Assembly (NCBI GenBank): GCA_013360285.1 | Contig: JABWCM010000011.1 | Location: 24,877 to 88,876, forward strand | Length of the DNA stretch: 64,000 nt | Direction of reading: 5' to 3' | Origin: Myxococcales bacterium | Lineage (GTDB): Bacteria; Myxococcota_A; UBA9042; JABWCM01 | Part shown: positions 2,303 through 35,901 of the stretch, piece by piece | Numbering within the stretch: the stretch's first letter is position 1 | Layout: each line of letters starts with the position of its first letter | Translations under genes and position numbers: made by a program | Notes under the pieces: generated by a model | Told to the model about the DNA's origin: nothing | What the model saw: the letters and a program-made list of their open reading frames with translations, nothing else | The model's database searches: none

Positions 2303-3967
2303 GTGGAGTATAACGTGTCTTTTCCCGAACCCCTTTCGTCGTCCGTCGCCCGGTTGCGTGCTCGTGCTCCTCTGCCGGATTCGGTCGACGTTGCCATTGT
2401 GGGCGCTGGTCCCGGTGGATTGACTGCCGCTGGTTATCTTACTCAATTGGGATTGAGGACTGCTGTTTTTGACAGTCACTATGTGGCCGGCGGTTGTGCT
2501 ACCCAGTTTTCCCGTGGTCCCAAAAATCAACGGTATCATTTTGATATTGGGCTTCATTACGTCGGAGATTGTACGCCGGATGGTCTCATTCCCAAGATGT
2601 TGGCAGACATCGGGGTGCACGTCGATTTTCTGGAAATGGATCCCGATGGGTTTGATACCTTTGTGTTTCCGGACTTTCGGTTTCGGGTCCCTGCGAATTT
2701 GGATTTGTATCGGCAGCGGCTGGTCGATTTGTTTCCGTCGGAACGCCGCGGGATTGATCGGTATGTGAAACTGGTGCAGCAGGTGGATCGAATCGGCCGT
2801 ACCATGGCGAATCGGGGTGGGAAACTTTCTGCGGTCGTGGTGCTGGAAGTGCTGTTGTTTGGGCGCCTGTTGGCCCGATATCAAAACGCGACACTGGGTG
2901 CTTTTTTGGATACGGTGACCCAAAATCCTCATTTGAGGGCGGTGATTGCCGGACAAAACGGGGATTACGGTTTGCCGCCAAGTCGGGTCAGTGTGGCGCT
3001 GCACGCGGGGTTGGCCGCACATTATTTTCGTGGGGCATATTATCCCCGCGGAGGTGGGCAGGTATTGGCGGATAACATCGCCGCTGCCGTAGAAAGTCGC
3101 GGCGGTACGATCCATCTGCGGCGTGGCATTTCGCAAATCCTGGTCGAAAACGGGCGCGCCGTAGGGGTTCGTACCGAGCCGCGCGATGGGGAAATCGCCG
3201 AAGTGCGGGCTAAAGTGGTGATTTCCAATGCAGATTTGAAACGTACGATGTTGGAACTGGTTCCGCCCGCTGTGTTGCCGACCCCAGCTTTGGAAAAAGC
3301 AAAACAATACGAAATGGCTGCCGCCATCTTTTTGACTTGCCTTGGGATAAAAGCCGATTTACGCGCTTTGGGGATGCAGGTCACCAACTACTGGCAGTTT
3401 GATACCTACGATATGGAGTCGTTGTATCGGGACGCCAATCAGAAAACCACACCCGAAGTCGGCGCTTGTTATATTACCAGTGCCACCATGAAAGACCCGG
3501 TCAATCCGCATCATGCTCCTGAAGGGATTTATAACGTCGAAGTCATGACCCTGGTGCCCGGTAACCCCCGATTGTGGGGGGTCGAGCCAGGTTTGGCCGA
3601 CAATTGGGGATACAAACGGAACGATGTCTACCTCCGCCGAAAAGAAGAGGTTGAGAATCAGATGATCGAAAGGCTCAACAACTTATTTCCCGGGTCCAAA
3701 GATCACATCGTATTTCGTGAATCGGCCACACCGGTCACTCACAGCCGATTTACTCGGGCCACAGACGGCACCGGATATGGACTGGCGGCGATCCCGTCTC
3801 AGTTTATGAAAAACCGTCCTTCTTATCGGTCACCAATCCCGGGGCTCTATTTTTGTGGCGCGTCCACCCGCGCGGGACACGGGATAGTCGGCGCCATGAT
3901 GTCCGGAAAACACGCCGCCGCCAAAGTCGCAGCCGATTTGGGGTTGGTGTTTCCTGACCGTCGCTGA
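2303..3967 (+). CDS. FAD-dependent phytoene desaturase / retinol saturase-like oxidoreductase (NAD(P)/FAD family)
   Basis: VDVAIVGAGPGGLTAAGYLTQLGLRTAVFDSHYVAGGCATQF dinucleotide-binding motif; C-terminal GLYFCGASTRAGHGIVGAMMSGKHAA. Confidence 0.85.
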   Translation: MEYNVSFPEPLSSSVARLRARAPLPDSVDVAIVGAGPGGLTAAGYLTQLGLRTAVFDSHYVAGGCATQFSRGPKNQRYHFDIGLHYVGDCTPDGLIPKMLADIGVHVDFLEMDPDGFDTFVFPDFRFRVPANLDLYRQRLVDLFPSERRGIDRYVKLVQQVDRIGRTMANRGGKLSAVVVLEVLLFGRLLARYQNATLGAFLDTVTQNPHLRAVIAGQNGDYGLPPSRVSVALHAGLAAHYFRGAYYPRGGGQVLADNIAAAVESRGGTIHLRRGISQILVENGRAVGVRTEPRDGEIAEVRAKVVISNADLKRTMLELVPPAVLPTPALEKAKQYEMAAAIFLTCLGIKADLRALGMQVTNYWQFDTYDMESLYRDANQKTTPEVGACYITSATMKDPVNPHHAPEGIYNVEVMTLVPGNPRLWGVEPGLADNWGYKRNDVYLRRKEEVENQMIERLNNLFPGSKDHIVFRESATPVTHSRFTRATDGTGYGLAAIPSQFMKNRPSYRSPIPGLYFCGASTRAGHGIVGAMMSGKHAAAKVAADLGLVFPDRR

Positions 3968-4228: not shown

Positions 4229-7200
4229 GTGGCCATGTTCGTATACGAAAGTGTTTTCCGGAGTAATCCACCGGCTTACAACGACATTGGATGGTTTCGG
4301 CGCCTGGCGGCGGCGACGATGATGATTGTTTTTGTCATGACGGCGCAGAGCGCCTATGCCCAATTGGTGGGGGACTCGATTCCCGTAACCGGGGAATTTC
4401 GGCTGACGGACACAAGCGGCACACCGCTTGATCTGGTGAATCCGGCACTGTTGGATCCAAACGGCGCCGAAGTGTATAATGTACTACAAAATCACGGGTT
4501 TGCGTCGATGACCTACTGGGGTGGATTGTGGGACGGAAACTTCGGCATTCGAGCGTATTCGGACTCCACACCCACGATCCCAACTTTGTATGCGTACGGC
4601 CAGATCACAACGGTCAACAGCATGCGCGCGTCGTACATCTTGAATGTACAGCGCGCACTTAACGAAACGTTGTACTACAACGTGAACCCGTGGATGCGAC
4701 TGGATCAACAGGGGATTCCGGGGACACAATTCAACGCCTTATATTACCAAACCGAACGAAAAGAAAACAACATCGATAAACGAATTGCGGTGACCCCGGC
4801 CACCAACTCGGTTCCCAATCACCATTTTCAAACGTCTCCGGCGGTTATCGAAGTGCAGTTCTATATCGGTTCGGCTGCCGACAATCAGATTTTTACCGGA
4901 ACCGGCGCTGGATCTGCGTGTGCTGCGGGTGGAAAAACGCCGGTTGTGACGACAGGCGGGAACCTCTACATCGCTGCGTTACAAGGGAATGACTACCAGA
5001 ATCCGCCGATCAGCGAAGGTACTACGGCGATATGGTACAACACTTGCTGCAACAACGAATTTGTGGTCGTCCGCGGATTTCAAGACCCCGCGCGCCAAAA
5101 TTACCGGATCACTCACAGCACATTTATCAGCTACAACCATCCCGATGGCACTTCCAGGAGTGTTAAGTTTGCCGATTTGTTGGGTGGCTTATCCTATGTC
5201 GACGTTGTGGCGCCCCCGATGGCGGTCACCAGTGTGTGTATTCCGTTGACCGATCTCCAAGATCGTTCATGTATCGTCGGATATGGCGACGTTTATGGTG
5301 AAAACGAGATCACTTCTACCATTTGGTTCCAAGGTACGTTTGGCGAAGTCGCAGCCAGCCGCAATGGAATTTTGGATACGGTTGCCAATCCTTCGTCCGG
5401 CGAGTTTGTGATTCCTTCGTTGGTGCCGGCCACTTTCAATGGTGTTCGGTTCCAGAGTGTTGTCGATCGCCCGCCGACGGTGGCCGGCTATCCCAACTCC
5501 GGCGACAGTTTGGCCCGTTTGTACACCCACCCGAGTTATGACAAAGATGCCAACGGCAATCCGCGTACTTCTGCGTTTACTACGGTGGGGTATCCGACTC
5601 CTCCCGGGCCGTCGGTGCCCAGCCAGTGTTCGATTTATGCGGCTCCGGGTACGTCACCGACCCCGACGTTGGTTCACCCCGGTTATGTGTCGGGAACCGT
5701 GACGATGTACGACGGCGGAACGTTTATCGATGCCGACGCCCCGAATCCGGTGCGTTTGCTGGCCGCGGTCGATTATTATACCGAAGCCAACAAAATCCAA
5801 AACGGTGCGTGGACTTATGTGACGACTTACGAGGCGTTGACCCCTACGGGTGGAGATACCGGCGCATTTACCTACGGGGAGCCGATTCCCGACCTCGATC
5901 CCATTACCGGACAACCTTATATCGATCCCAACGGCAACAAAACCACCGGGATTTATTATTATCCGGTGATTCGCCCCAACTGGACCGCCCCCGATGGCAC
6001 CTGGTTGCCGGGATATTGGCGAGCTCGTATTCTGGTGTTGCAGTTCAAAGCGGGGGTTACGACTGATCCTGAAGGGTATATCAGCCAAACGCTTCATTAT
6101 ATTCGACAGCAACCCAACGCTGCTCAGACTGCGCCGACTCTTCTTGATGCGTCCCCGATTTTTCCGGGACAGACGTTGGCAAACCAGAACTTCGACCTCT
6201 GTTTTGGCGTTGTACGGTTGACTATCAAGGACACCGGAGGAGGTGTCGCCAAGATGATTTACGATCCGGTTGTTTCCAAAGATGTGGCCGGCGCGGGATT
6301 CCTGGTGGGCGATTTCGAGCCGTTGGCGGCGGGTTCTCCGAGCAAAATCGGTGGGCCGCGGATCGACATCAAAGCGGTCAATGGAACGCCTTCGGGTGTG
6401 GCCAATGCGGCCCAGGAAGGAATCATCAAAATGATCCTGCCGGCGGGTGTTTATAAGGGGTTGAACCTGAGTTACAAAATCGTCAACGGTGGATCGACAA
6501 CGTTGCCGCCATTTGATGTCGGCGCCGTGGGGTGTGGTCAAACCGTGGAAATTACGCCCAATCTGCAAATTACCGCGAGTGCACCTCCGTGTGTGGAGCA
6601 GGACAACGTCGGTGATTTTGGTGTGGTTGGCACGGTGAATTCGATTCCTTTGGGACCGGGTGCCCAAGCGGTTGCCAACGCTCAGATCCAATCGATGTGG
6701 TATACCGTGGAAAACGGCCCCCCGATCATGTTGAACCCGGCCATTCATCGGACCGACGTACCCGGTGCAACCGAGTGGGGGCTGACACCCACCTATGGGT
6801 TTGATGCTATCTTACCAACCGAATGTGAAATCTATCACATTAAAGTGAGTGCAGAGCTTGTTGACGGCACCATCGCGTCTTCGGAAAGCATCACGGTGTA
6901 TGATGACGGTCAGGCGCCGGTGTTGGAATGCGACGACGTGACATTGGTAGATATCAACCTGGATGGGTCGGAAGCCGGAAACCTTTCCAACTTTATTTCG
7001 GCTACCGACAATTGCGATATCAATACACAAATCAGCTACTTTGGTGCGCTGGGGGTGTATCCTCTCAATTCGTCTACGGAAGTGGTTGCAACCGGCAAAG
7101 ATAGCTGCGGGAATGCTGCGACGTGTACGTTTAATGTCAACGTCGTGCCGCCACCTATCCCCGATATCCCGACACTGCCCACGGTGACCGGTCAATGTTC

Positions 7201-7978
7201 CGCATCGGTGGCGGCAAACCCGCCTACCGCAACCGATTACCTTGGCAATACCATTGTGGGTGTGCCGCTTGGCGCCACGACGTTCTCACAGCAGGGTGTG
7301 TATACGGTGAACTGGCAGTACACCGATGGTTTGAATACGGCGGTGGTACAAACCCAACAGGTGATTGTGGATGATACCTTGGCACCTGTGCCGGCGATCA
7401 ATCCATTGCCCGATGTGGCCAGTGAGTGTGTTTATACCCTTACGCCGCCTGTTGCGCAGGACAACTGTGCCGGACCCATTGTTGGCACTACCAACAGTCC
7501 GACTGTTCTCAGCCAGTTGGGGACTTATACGGTGACCTGGACGTTTGACGATGGGTTGGGCAACACGACTACCCAGGATCAAGACATCGTGATTTCCGAT
7601 TGTAACGACCTGGATGATTGTAATGGGGAAGAACAGTGCGACGGTGCCAACGGATGTATTCCGGGCACGCCCGTACCGCTGACACAGTGTGGTATCTGTG
7701 CGTCTATGGGTGATGTCAATGGCGATGGTCTGGTGAATGTTGGGGATACCAACTGCCTGATCCAAGTGGCGTTGTGGAATCTCAAAAACCCCACCGATCC
7801 GCCCCCCGCTTGTGTTCAGCCAACTATTTATTATGCCGATTTAAACTGCGATGGGACCTGGAATGTCAAAGACGTTCAGATGTCTATGGTCCTTGTACAA
7901 CTCGCCCTTTCGGGCACCCCCCTTCCGTTCACCGTAGATAACGACGGCAACGGTTGCCCTGATACCTGCCACGATTGA
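4229..7978 (+). CDS. Large secreted protein with HYR-like repeats and a C-terminal dockerin-like domain
   Basis: Signal-like N-terminus; repeated VDDTLAPVP..DNCAGPIVG..LGTYTVTWTFDDGLGNTTT. C-terminal pair GDVNGDGLVNVGDTNCLIQVAL and ADLNCDGTWNVKDVQMSMVLVQLAL. Confidence 0.75.
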   Translation: MAMFVYESVFRSNPPAYNDIGWFRRLAAATMMIVFVMTAQSAYAQLVGDSIPVTGEFRLTDTSGTPLDLVNPALLDPNGAEVYNVLQNHGFASMTYWGGLWDGNFGIRAYSDSTPTIPTLYAYGQITTVNSMRASYILNVQRALNETLYYNVNPWMRLDQQGIPGTQFNALYYQTERKENNIDKRIAVTPATNSVPNHHFQTSPAVIEVQFYIGSAADNQIFTGTGAGSACAAGGKTPVVTTGGNLYIAALQGNDYQNPPISEGTTAIWYNTCCNNEFVVVRGFQDPARQNYRITHSTFISYNHPDGTSRSVKFADLLGGLSYVDVVAPPMAVTSVCIPLTDLQDRSCIVGYGDVYGENEITSTIWFQGTFGEVAASRNGILDTVANPSSGEFVIPSLVPATFNGVRFQSVVDRPPTVAGYPNSGDSLARLYTHPSYDKDANGNPRTSAFTTVGYPTPPGPSVPSQCSIYAAPGTSPTPTLVHPGYVSGTVTMYDGGTFIDADAPNPVRLLAAVDYYTEANKIQNGAWTYVTTYEALTPTGGDTGAFTYGEPIPDLDPITGQPYIDPNGNKTTGIYYYPVIRPNWTAPDGTWLPGYWRARILVLQFKAGVTTDPEGYISQTLHYIRQQPNAAQTAPTLLDASPIFPGQTLANQNFDLCFGVVRLTIKDTGGGVAKMIYDPVVSKDVAGAGFLVGDFEPLAAGSPSKIGGPRIDIKAVNGTPSGVANAAQEGIIKMILPAGVYKGLNLSYKIVNGGSTTLPPFDVGAVGCGQTVEITPNLQITASAPPCVEQDNVGDFGVVGTVNSIPLGPGAQAVANAQIQSMWYTVENGPPIMLNPAIHRTDVPGATEWGLTPTYGFDAILPTECEIYHIKVSAELVDGTIASSESITVYDDGQAPVLECDDVTLVDINLDGSEAGNLSNFISATDNCDINTQISYFGALGVYPLNSSTEVVATGKDSCGNAATCTFNVNVVPPPIPDIPTLPTVTGQCSASVAANPPTATDYLGNTIVGVPLGATTFSQQGVYTVNWQYTDGLNTAVVQTQQVIVDDTLAPVPAINPLPDVASECVYTLTPPVAQDNCAGPIVGTTNSPTVLSQLGTYTVTWTFDDGLGNTTTQDQDIVISDCNDLDDCNGEEQCDGANGCIPGTPVPLTQCGICASMGDVNGDGLVNVGDTNCLIQVALWNLKNPTDPPPACVQPTIYYADLNCDGTWNVKDVQMSMVLVQLALSGTPLPFTVDNDGNGCPDTCHD

Positions 7979-31850: not shown

Positions 31851-33266
31851 ATGAGGACTCCGCAGGATGTATTGGCGTTTGCCAAAGAACATGGCTGTCA
31901 GATGGTGGATTTAAAATTTCTTGATTTTGTTGGCATGTGGCAACATTTAACCGTGCCGATCAGCGAGTTCGACGAAGGGCGATTTGAAGATGGATTCGGA
32001 TTCGATGGGTCGTCCATTCGGGGATGGCAGCCGATTCATGCATCCGACATGTTGATGATTCCGGATCCAAGTACGGCGAAATTGGATCCGTTTCCGAAAT
32101 ATTCAACTCTGTCGCTGATTTGTGATGTATTCGACCCGATTACCAAAGAGCCCTATTCGCGTGATCCACGGCATATCGCCAAAAAAGCGGTTGCGTTTTT
32201 GAAGTCGACCGGAATCGGAGACCATGCTTATTTCGGCCCGGAAGCCGAGTTTTTTGTGTTTGATGATGTTCGGTTTGATCAAACCCGGCATTCGGCGTTT
32301 TACCATTTGGACTCCTCCGAAGGGCGGTGGAATACGGGTCGAGATGAGAAACCCAATCTCGGATACAAACCTCGATACAAAGAAGGATATTTTCCGGTTT
32401 CTCCCACCGACAGTTTGGTGGATTTACGCACCGAAATGTGCCTGGAACTTCAGAAGTTGGGGATTCAGGTCGAAGCGCAGCATCACGAAGTCGCGACAGC
32501 CGGTCAATGCGAAATCGATATGCGGTTTAGTGATCTTGTGACGATGGCCGACAATTTGATGTGGTTTAAGTATGTGATCAAAAACGTGGCACGTCGCAAC
32601 AACAAAACGGTGACTTTTATGCCCAAGCCGTTGTTTGAAGAAAACGGCAGCGGAATGCACTGTCATCAGAGCATTTGGAAAGGGGACAAAAACCTGTTCG
32701 CCGGCGACACGTATGCCGGGCTCAGCGACATGGCAATGCATTATATCGGTGGGATTTTGAAACATGCACCGGCGATTTGTGCGCTCACCAATCCAACCAC
32801 CAATTCTTACAAACGATTGGTTCCCGGTTACGAAGCGCCGGTCAATCTGGCTTATTCGAGCCGGAACCGGTCGGCGGCGATACGGATTCCGGTTGCGGTG
32901 TATTCGGCGAAAGCCCGAAGAATCGAATTTCGAACGCCCGATCCCTCGTGTAATGGGTATATGGCGTTTGCGGCGATGTTGATGGCGGGACTCGACGGTA
33001 TTGAAAACCGGATCGATCCCGGCAAACCGCTGGACAAAGATATTTACGGGTTGTCGCCCGAAGAACTGAAAGATATTCCGAGTGTGCCGGGTTCGCTGGA
33101 GGGCGCATTGAACGCATTGCGTAACGACCACGAGTTTTTGCTGCGCGGCAACGTGTTTACCGAAGATGCAATTGAGATGTGGGTAAACTACAAAATCCAG
33201 TCGGAAGTACGCCCGGTGCAGATGCGGCCGGTTCCTTATGAATTTGCGTTGTATTACGATATCTAA
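31851..33266 (+). CDS. glnA: Type I glutamine synthetase
   Basis: [73 protein letters not shown]. Confidence 0.97.
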
Positions 33267-33625
33267 CCGACCCCCAATCGACCCTTAAGTTACGAAATTC
33301 CTGCCGATCTGACTCGTCCAGCCCACGTCTCCACTTCTCTGCGGCAATCAATTCAATTTTCGGCCCTGTTGTGGTCCAAGGGGCGTCTTTGTTCGTTCGA
33401 AGCGATGGTTGACGTTTACCTGGTCAGTGGCCAATTGTTGGGCAGTTTAAAAAATGGTGATGGAGATTGGGCGACTTGCGGCCTTAGTCCACCGCTGTGG
33501 GTGTTTGTTGGCTCGGGCGAAGTGATTATCCCGTGAATCGGGCGAAGGGCGAAAGTGGGGCGGAAGAGATGGCATTGTCAATTATTACAACACATTAAGG
33601 CGACGTAGCGGCGAGGCAGAAAACT

Positions 33626-33641
33626 TGGCACACAACCTGCA
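33626..33641 (+). promoter_or_regulatory. Candidate sigma-54 (RpoN) -24/-12 promoter
   Basis: TGGCACACAACCTGCA against the TGGCAC-N5-TTGCW consensus: invariant GG and GC at correct 10-nt spacing, one deviation (CTGCA for TTGCA). Predicted start about 33652. Confidence 0.7.
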
Positions 33642-33651
33642 ATAGTGTTTT

Positions 33652-34735
33652 TACGCGAGGCGCTGGATGAATAAACCAGCCAAGCAACCCAGGCCTAAAG
33701 TCACTAAACAGCTAATCCCTGTTCATTAGATCGGCCAAAAACATCAAGAGGGCCGGCAATCTCGAGAGAGATAAGCCAAACTCCCAGTACGACATACTCT
33801 GAATGACACACGTCACCTGATCACCGCAGCAGCAATGTTGTGGCTGAAGAAGTGTCGATAAAGTCAGTTGAATCCCATGTGAACCGTAAGGTCGTGTGTG
33901 TGTTCATCTCGAAAGAGGAGAGGATCGTCCACGAAGGTGGAACCAAGGCTGGAGTGAGAATTCCCTGAAGATGTGAACAACCAAGAAAGCATCGGGGTAT
34001 TTGGGCGTCGCGGAAACGCGGCACAATACCAACGGACTTTCCCACGGATGAAAGCCCTGAAGGCGCGGGTTCTCTGAAGCAATTCAGCGAACAAAAACGA
34101 CAAGAGGGCAACACGCCAAAGATAATGCGGCGGTGCTGTGTGAAAGGGAAAAGCTTTGAAGGGTAGAATCCCACGAGTGCTTGTCGAGTGAAACAAATCG
34201 ACAACCAATGAAAAGAGAAAACCGTCACGAAGGAGAGAAACCTTGAAGGCGGAAAGGCGGCGGGCTAGGTAAACCCGAAGCCGATTTCGTAAGTCTTCGG
34301 ACTCAGCGAACTCGATAAATGGATTTTCATTGAGAATAGCGCTGTAGGGAAAAAAAACCTCATGAGAGGTGCTGTTCCAAAAACAGCAGGATCAAACGAC
34401 CGGGAGTGTCGAAAGGCCCTCCGGTGGAATTTCACAATGGCCGTTGGTTTCCTTCGGACTTTGTCGAATCCAGTGTTCTCTGAAGTAGACGTAAGCTAGT
34501 GAGCGGATGACTCCTTGGAATACAGGGAAGACCTGCTTGTCGAAATACCTCAAGGCCGGGTCACTGCAAAGTGATAATGGCGTAGAGGGAGTGTCAACCA
34601 ATACTACACTACGACAAGCAGATAGAATACGCTGAGTAGCAACCTAACTGCATGAGAGGACAGGACAACACGGTGACGTGTACCGTCCAGCACGTTTGAT
34701 ACGTATCCCTCTGAAGAGGAATTTCGGGTTTGTTT
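33652..34735 (+). ncRNA. Candidate giant structured noncoding RNA (~1.08 kb), no family assigned
   Basis: No supported ORF. More than 20 perfect short hairpins read by eye. Examples: GCTGG..CCAGC 33662-33680; ATCTC-GAGA-GAGAT 33759-33772; CGCG-GAAA-CGCG inside GGTATT..AATACC 33996-34030; GTTC-T-CTGAA-GCAA-TTCAG-C-GAAC 34069-34092; TTGTCGA..TCGACAA 34181-34204; ACCTC-ATGA-GAGGT 34357-34370; GCTGTT..AACAGC 34371-34387; TCACT-GCAA-AGTGA 34561-34574; ACACG-GTGA-CGTGT in GGAC..GTCC 34663-34688. Long-range CTGCTTGTCG (34533-34542) / CGACAAGCAG (34612-34621). Confidence 0.75.
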
Positions 34736-34737
34736 GG

Positions 34738-35901
34738 TCATGTGTTCTTCAGCGTCTCGCTTTTTTTTTTGCCAAATTCCAAAACAAGTGGTGCCGGACC
34801 GATATCGCCAACCAACTGTTCATCGTTGTAGATAAGACATCTTTGTTCAGTGATTTCCCAGCGATTGCCTTCCAACAACGTTTTACCCACATCATAAAAA
34901 AACACCCAGTCGAAATAAGCCGAGTCCACATTGCGGTCGAGCGCAAACGGGGTCAAGAAATCCGTATACGTGTTCTCGGAACCAGGGGCACCGTTGACGA
35001 ACAGCACCTGGCGCCTGTCATCCCAATAAAGCCGGGTCAACGACAAGATATTCAACAGTATTGTGCGTGAACTGGTGTGGGTTTGCGCCAACTTCGTATC
35101 GATTTGTTGCGCATAAACGAAAGATTCCGGGCAGTCGTAACGGCACGGAAACCAGCCAATATAATGGAAAAATGTCAGAGATAGGTTGTTCAACAATGGT
35201 TCAAAGTGGTCACTAGCCCGGGTGCTTTGACCAATGATGGAGTGGTTGCGGTAAATTCGATCGAGCGAGACATAAGCCTGAACACAACAGGATGGATAAC
35301 CCAGTAAGTTACCAAGTTTTGTCATCAGTTCCCGTTCCATGGTAGTATACGCATAGGCCAAAAGCTGTTGATCCAGTTCAACCGCTTGATGGAGTCGGTC
35401 GCGGTCCCAACCGATGTAGGTAAGCAATCGCTGATTTTCCGGAACACGGGAGTCGACGCGGAACACGTATGGGTCTTCGGGTTTGTGGTCGCCTTGATTC
35501 ACCCTGTTTTCCCGGTGGGTACGGGCGTCGGAGTCACAAGTGTATCCGTCAAGCCAATCTTCGCTGATCGTAAGAGGATAACTGGCTGTAAACAATCCGG
35601 TTGTTTCAATTTGTTTCCGTGTGGATTCCCATCTAGCGGCGGGTACAATTTCGCGGATCAGCGGTTTTAAGCCGAGTTGCAGTGCGGTCCACTCGCCGTC
35701 GTTGGCCCCCAACCCAACGTCGTGCCGAGTATTGGCAAATTTGCGATACAGTTTGTAGGTTGTTGGGTCGTTGAGATTCGTCATGGCAGCAAGCGTAGAG
35801 TTGTCTACGTGACCCCAATAGAGGTTTGCCGCAGCCTGGAGTTTGGAGGGTAAAAACTTCATCATGTCCTGTGTCTGGGATCGTAGCAGGACCTCCAGCA
35901 T
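34738..35901 (-). CDS. DUF483-like protein of unknown function
   Basis: 387 aa; LGNLLGYPSCCVQAYVSLDRIY resembles the DUF483 GYPxCC motif; convergent with the ncRNA. Confidence 0.55.
   Translation of the reverse strand: MLEVLLRSQTQDMMKFLPSKLQAAANLYWGHVDNSTLAAMTNLNDPTTYKLYRKFANTRHDVGLGANDGEWTALQLGLKPLIREIVPAARWESTRKQIETTGLFTASYPLTISEDWLDGYTCDSDARTHRENRVNQGDHKPEDPYVFRVDSRVPENQRLLTYIGWDRDRLHQAVELDQQLLAYAYTTMERELMTKLGNLLGYPSCCVQAYVSLDRIYRNHSIIGQSTRASDHFEPLLNNLSLTFFHYIGWFPCRYDCPESFVYAQQIDTKLAQTHTSSRTILLNILSLTRLYWDDRRQVLFVNGAPGSENTYTDFLTPFALDRNVDSAYFDWVFFYDVGKTLLEGNRWEITEQRCLIYNDEQLVGDIGPAPLVLEFGKKKSETLKNT

Follow-up and report, generated by a model that had tools for sequence, protein, structure and literature searches.

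The window, by which we mean the whole 64,000-nt stretch of Myxococcales bacterium DNA that was analyzed (contig JABWCM010000011.1), contains glnA at 31851-33266, with a Pfam Gln-synt_C match, and in the interval after it, on the plus strand, a gene for a giant structured noncoding RNA. The 3′ end of this RNA slightly overlaps the 3′ end of a convergent gene on the minus strand (34738-35901), which encodes a DUF483-like protein of 387 aa. The Pfam score of this protein lies just below the cut-off, and weaker relatives of it were found in 31 of 52 genomes of the class, the window's own genome included; a scan of named genomes that took this neighbor as a lead confirmed no relative. The first-pass annotation had proposed a noncoding RNA at 33652-34735. 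The RNA itself was borne out, but its 3′ limit had been set too early, because a pairing between 33655-33667 and 34748-34760 is followed directly by a run of ten T and the RNA thus extends to about 34770. In the partition function of the window RNA, this pairing yields one closed molecule. The features of the locus, all on the plus strand, are:

~33652-34770, plus strand: whole giant structured noncoding RNA, delimited by covariance models R1-R3, closing helix, promoter and T-tract (ends approximate).
33626-33641, plus strand: putative sigma-54-type (-24/-12) promoter, TGGCACACAACCTGCA, a sequence match 29 nt before the closing helix.
33655-33667, plus strand: 5′ strand of the closing helix, GCGAGGCGCTGGA, predicted to pair with 34748-34760 (13 bp, probability 0.99).
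33752-33777, plus strand: 5′-domain GNRA hairpin, GCCGGCA-ATCTC-GAGA-GAGAT-AAGCC, a motif that recurs with compensated stem changes among several members of one clade.
33986-34157, plus strand: module C, the third module, with moderate support in the window copy from its branching topology and an R3 match.
34150-34372, plus strand: module B, matched by R3 at 151.8 bits (E 1.9e-47), the window copy being among the 13 training sequences of that model.
34474-34662, plus strand: module A, or 3′ module, the source of models R1 and R2.
34668-34681, plus strand: GNRA hairpin ACACG-GTGA-CGTGT after module A, with a GNRA hairpin at the same place in relatives.
34708-34719, plus strand: 3′ element, CCTCTGAAGAGG, with a similar CUCUG-GAGG in relatives shortly 5′ of the 3′ closing strand.
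34748-34760, plus strand: 3′ strand of the closing helix, TTCAGCGTCTCGC, partner of 33655-33667.
34761-34770, plus strand: T-tract (T10), adjoining the closing helix directly, the probable 3′ end.

Four hairpins with 5-bp stems and GNRA loops had been claimed, and all four are present on the plus strand of 33652-34735, where 0.055 would be expected. None of 1000 dinucleotide shuffles reached four such hairpins, and the minus strand of the same interval has none. The perfect stems without GNRA loops cited alongside them are also real, but other 5-bp hairpins are only mildly above expectation (12 versus 5.9) and equally frequent on both strands, so that the GNRA loops are the informative part. 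The folding energy of 33640-34600 is -314.7 kcal/mol (z -4.55). Most 200-nt segments of the plus strand are unremarkable (z about -1, with the exception of 34500-34699 at -5.0 and 34200-34399 at -2.4), because much of the structure is long-range. Beyond modules A and B, the closing helix and the pair of GNRA hairpins listed above, the structure of the window copy is mostly energy prediction.

In agreement with the first reading, the interval appears to encode no protein, as the ORFs tested there had no Pfam match. Long ORFs do run antisense to the RNA, in the window (33821-34228, minus strand) as well as in L089, L091, L093 and L094, and they are mutually similar between genomes; those of the window had no Pfam match. 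Such ORFs risk being annotated as hypothetical proteins.

The genome has only this one copy of the window RNA, and a BLAST search at the DNA level with the entire RNA against 138 genomes, phages and plasmids recovered nothing beyond chance, because the sequence is too divergent. Both observations would suit a structure that arose by chance, or a protein-coding region, whether intact or decayed. Relatives were instead recovered with covariance models, whose E-values the tool itself declares to be rough. The first model, R1, was built from one sequence and its own predicted structure, covering only the most stable part of the RNA (34474-34662), and it matched in five genomes of the same class with E-values from 2e-12 to 8e-7. 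Among these six sequences, 38 of 58 pairs were changed on both sides; none of 500 shuffles equaled this, and sliding the partner by 1-3 columns collapsed the signal. A refined model, R2, matched in 39 of 379 genomes of the phylum at E<=0.1. The 60 matches aligned contained 967 double-changed cells versus 316 after shuffling and 134-214 after sliding, with 88% of cells paired, in alignments that, being fitted to the structure, are biased in its favor, although the first relatives had been found before any covariation entered the model. Full-length RNAalifold consensus structures for two clades gave 292 double-changed cells versus 93 shuffled (34-58 slid) and 127 versus 45 (10-29 slid). The covariation across homologs on which the first-pass annotation had staked its proposal is therefore significant in modules A and B and, in two clades, over the full length, and the conserved fold is supported to the same extent. 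Covariation and independent relatives, together with ORFs that belong to no protein family, exclude a chance or coding origin for practical purposes, and we give that reading next to no weight.

The core of the RNA is a tandem array of homologous modules of ~190 nt, at least two and probably three or four in number. In 13 RNAs, the module A model also matched a second, upstream place, which in the window lies at 34150-34371. A third model, R3, was built from those 13 upstream sequences, aligned alone, with its structure drawn from their RNAalifold consensus; in this alignment 29 of 44 pairs were double-changed, a value reached in 0 of 500 shuffles. The relationship between the two modules was recovered in both directions, since R3, trained on module B only, matched window module A at 39.2 bits (E 1.1e-10), and R2, trained on module A only, matched window module B at 24.1 bits (E 6e-6 in the region). 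R3 locates module B in most RNAs of the family, and module A, absent from its training set, as well. In the planctomycete locus L157 it found three successive modules (E 1.6e-11, 4.4e-41 and 3.3e-11), and L153 is alike. In module C of the window, R3 matched 62 nt only (34051-34112, E 1.2e-5 in the region), and the branching topology is the same. A possible fourth module, in the 5′ domain, is read from the topology, and both module C and the 5′ domain of the window are assigned mainly from energy prediction and topology. All modules share one plan, which comprises a 4-bp outer helix, the 3x3 loop CUCU-GAA-G / C-AUG-AGAG and a second helix, together with a hairpin and a long two-armed helix. We infer that the RNA grew via duplication of one module.

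Two of the GNRA hairpins proposed at first pass were upheld by comparative data. Shortly after module A, in the position of ACACG-GTGA-CGTGT, 43 of 64 loci have a GNRA hairpin, built on 38 different stems, against a shuffled mean of 1.1. A divergent clade retains the hairpin ATCTC-GAGA-GAGAT with compensatory changes in its stem. A 10-bp long-range helix between 33808-33817 and 34672-34681, drawn by the energy model, is probably wrong, as it competes with the conserved GNRA hairpin. Within the modules, the loops AACCAAUA (module A), UGAAACAA and UGAGGUAA (both module B) are conserved on stems of varying sequence. GNRA loops that persist while the stems beneath them change are generally a sign of tertiary docking, and the loops of the window RNA family may dock in this manner.

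The size of the RNA, its elaborate fold and its strongly conserved unpaired nucleotides are typical of large ribozymes, and one may ask whether the modules, once docked, create a catalytic center that acts in trans on RNA or another substrate by cleavage, ligation or modification. OLE has been proposed as a ribozyme on similar grounds (PMC11332333). Set against this, the Rfam models of known ribozymes, group I and II introns and RNase P among them, gave no match, a Hammerhead_II match in L087 (E 0.22) fell far below the gathering score, and an array of like modules does not obviously make up one active site; a catalytic role thus seems unlikely, if still credible.

The closing helix joins both ends of the RNA in about 20 relatives, with a sequence that differs from clade to clade. 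Promoter-like boxes stand just 5′ of it in relatives, and in many an intrinsic terminator stands just 3′. RNAs whose two ends are set by the closing helix and by boxes or terminators are 837-1186 nt long. The RNA of one clade is ~1.9 kb, with ends read by eye; this clade comprises L052, L053, L079 and L080 together with L051, which is broken by a contig end, and its module B is enlarged to ~290 nt. No neighboring gene of the family loci was consistent beyond genus-level synteny. L087 and L101, from two different families of the phylum, encode similar proteins before the RNA, by eye apparently HD-domain phosphohydrolases, and this common upstream gene is possibly inherited synteny. A cis-regulatory RNA, whether riboswitch or leader, was rejected on the grounds that no gene family lies consistently downstream and that the terminators come after the RNA. 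Group I and group II introns resemble the RNA in length, GNRA loops and A-rich junctions, but there was no Rfam intron match, and the RNA is intergenic (between glnA and the convergent gene), has its own promoter-like box and T-tract, and splits no gene that we saw. With its closing helix, promoter-like boxes, T-tract or terminator and unshared neighbors, the locus fits an independently transcribed, stand-alone RNA gene, neither riboswitch nor intron, as judged from these sequence signals.

The putative promoter TGGCACACAACCTGCA scores 19.5 of 21.7 and is joint top among the -24/-12 sites on both strands of the window, in a tie with a site at 5033 on the plus strand. In L087, L088, L090, L101 and L115 the same -24/-12 element precedes the closing helix by 28-32 nt, so that in the window and five relatives (not six independent cases, as L088 and L090 are paralogs in one genome) the -24 GG and -12 GC, at a constant spacing to where the RNA starts, would mark a sigma-54-dependent unit. 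Other clades have sigma-70-like boxes, for example TTGACA-N17-TATAGT in L103. Inside the window RNA, a simple promoter scan gave two sigma-70-like sites, no more than expected by chance. A search for inverted repeats as an activator site upstream of the TGGCACACAACCTGCA promoter found none. A direct repeat, TCGGGCGAAG, occurs at 33513-33522 and 33538-33547, 25 nt apart and ~80-115 nt upstream of the promoter, and is a possible activator site.

A conditional sigma-54-type promoter and a stand-alone unit would also suit a trans-acting regulator, whose modules titrate a regulatory protein, as CsrB or 6S RNA do, or base-pair with mRNAs; a repeated module could offer one protein many binding sites. 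Known sponge RNAs have short repeated hairpins. The long-range helices, fixed GNRA hairpins and covariation throughout the present RNA exceed what such RNAs need, and we regard this role as quite unlikely.

Against the 4227 families of Rfam, the window had no match at gathering score, and the sole match at E<=5 in the region was a chance match on the other strand. The single gathering match among relatives was a tRNA, on a contig later dropped. Weak matches to MAT2A_C, mir-320, Hammerhead_II, snoU89 and others were far below gathering and differed between members, and were dismissed as chance. No member of the family tested thus matches a known family above chance, in line with the first-pass annotation, which could not assign the RNA to one. 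The comparison drawn there with OLE, GOLLD and ROOL holds for the kind of RNA, but tests for homology were negative: GOLLD, ROOL, OLE and HEARO gave no gathering-score match in the window or 15 relative loci, and at E<=5 neither the window RNA nor three relatives matched them. Like GOLLD, the RNA is giant, elaborate and multi-branched with conserved loops; GOLLD, however, is phage-associated and forms a homo-oligomeric nanocage (PMC12286853), whereas the present family has tandem homologous modules and different hosts, with no phage found and no Rfam match. ROOL is likewise a large ornate RNA without a known protein partner, but is ~660 nt long and found mostly in phages and prophages (PMC12286853), and the window RNA has no Rfam match to it. 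OLE, too, is a large RNA encoded in bacterial chromosomes whose intricate fold is conserved, yet it is ~600 nt long, occurs in Gram-positive extremophiles and acts with Oap proteins at the membrane (PMC9723947, PMC10898510), while the present family belongs to other phyla and has no Rfam match.

Very long, multi-branched and supported by covariation, the RNA is a giant ornate RNA, a term for a kind and not a homology family. The literature searched, in which subscription papers and preprints were thinly covered so that an earlier description is possible, yielded no description of such an RNA family, and in those sources the architecture is undescribed for this kind. The proposal of a large ornate RNA, possibly of a new class, is thus supported by both covariation and the lack of an Rfam match, and none of the outcomes it had named as refuting came up; what the first reading had missed were the tandem modules, the sigma-54-type promoter, the closing helix with its T-tract and the second phylum. 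That the locus encodes a giant structured noncoding RNA, transcribed independently and belonging to a family undescribed in the literature searched, we take as almost certain.

The family was found in 72 of 379 Myxococcota genomes with R3 at E<=0.001 and in 18 of 392 Planctomycetota genomes with R2 at E<=0.01. A third phylum, reached via a Balneolales record, gave 1 of 296 genomes (E 0.0075), which is chance level. Seven named records were confirmed by the model: Myxococcales HKST-UBA33 and MJ-time_bin-5834, Deltaproteobacteria OFTM289 and GMC8, Planctomycetota OFTM272, Phycisphaerae PDA_C_MAG.97 and an uncultured proteobacterium. The named hosts of the family are MAGs. The Balneolales contig L119 and the viral contig L127, both matched by a conserved-core DNA pattern, were dropped when the model did not confirm them. 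Plasmids and phages were searched without a family match, and no viral contig was confirmed.

Distribution is patchy, and some genomes hold several copies of the RNA, a pattern that would also be expected of a selfish or mobile RNA element spreading as a unit. In L161 (G467:C8), two 1150-bp copies (2496-3645 and 6321-7469), 99.65% identical and ~3.8 kb apart, flank a protein-coding region. Their ends match those of the RNA gene, from a -10-like box to just past the terminator, which suggests, as read from these sequences, that the RNA gene has recently moved or been duplicated as one unit, and speaks for such an element. No target-site duplication was seen by eye in L161, however, and no associated protein was found at the loci. 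Loci are also syntenic within genera, and copies within a genome are mostly 67-82% identical and must therefore be old. We consider a selfish element very unlikely. Two genomes of one genus, G038 (L049, L089, L105) and G023 (L093, L100), each carry divergent paralogous copies, and the pairs L089/L093 and L105/L100 are syntenic between them; distinct paralogous copies seem to be kept in that genus.

The reading we prefer is that of a new-family giant RNA gene, conditionally transcribed, with an architectural function in trans, and we put the probability of this whole statement at about 0.5. In the window lineage the RNA would be switched on through sigma-54, and hence by an enhancer-binding activator, if the promoter, a sequence match, is used as such. 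Its modules would then dock on one another via GNRA and loop contacts to form a compact particle. OLE, ROOL and GOLLD form oligomers that assemble from RNA only (PMC12286853). The particle may act as an architectural RNA, either RNA-only, as these three are, or as a scaffold that binds a partner repeatedly, and a tandem array of like modules could provide an OLE/ROOL/GOLLD-like assembly within one chain. Taken by itself, this architectural mechanism falls somewhat short of an even bet. More tentatively still, the RNA may be a machine of a categorically new class, controlled by sigma-54 in several lineages, that arose by tandem duplication of one module and packs its modules in a single chain into a pseudo-symmetric particle, the covalent equivalent of homo-oligomers made of RNA only.

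Few classes of giant ornate RNA are known from bacteria; the present family adds a class in two phyla, and its covariance models make it annotatable. The sigma-54-type promoter in several lineages hints at conditions under which function could be tested. The tandem homologous modules hint at how giant RNAs may originate, by domain duplication and divergence.
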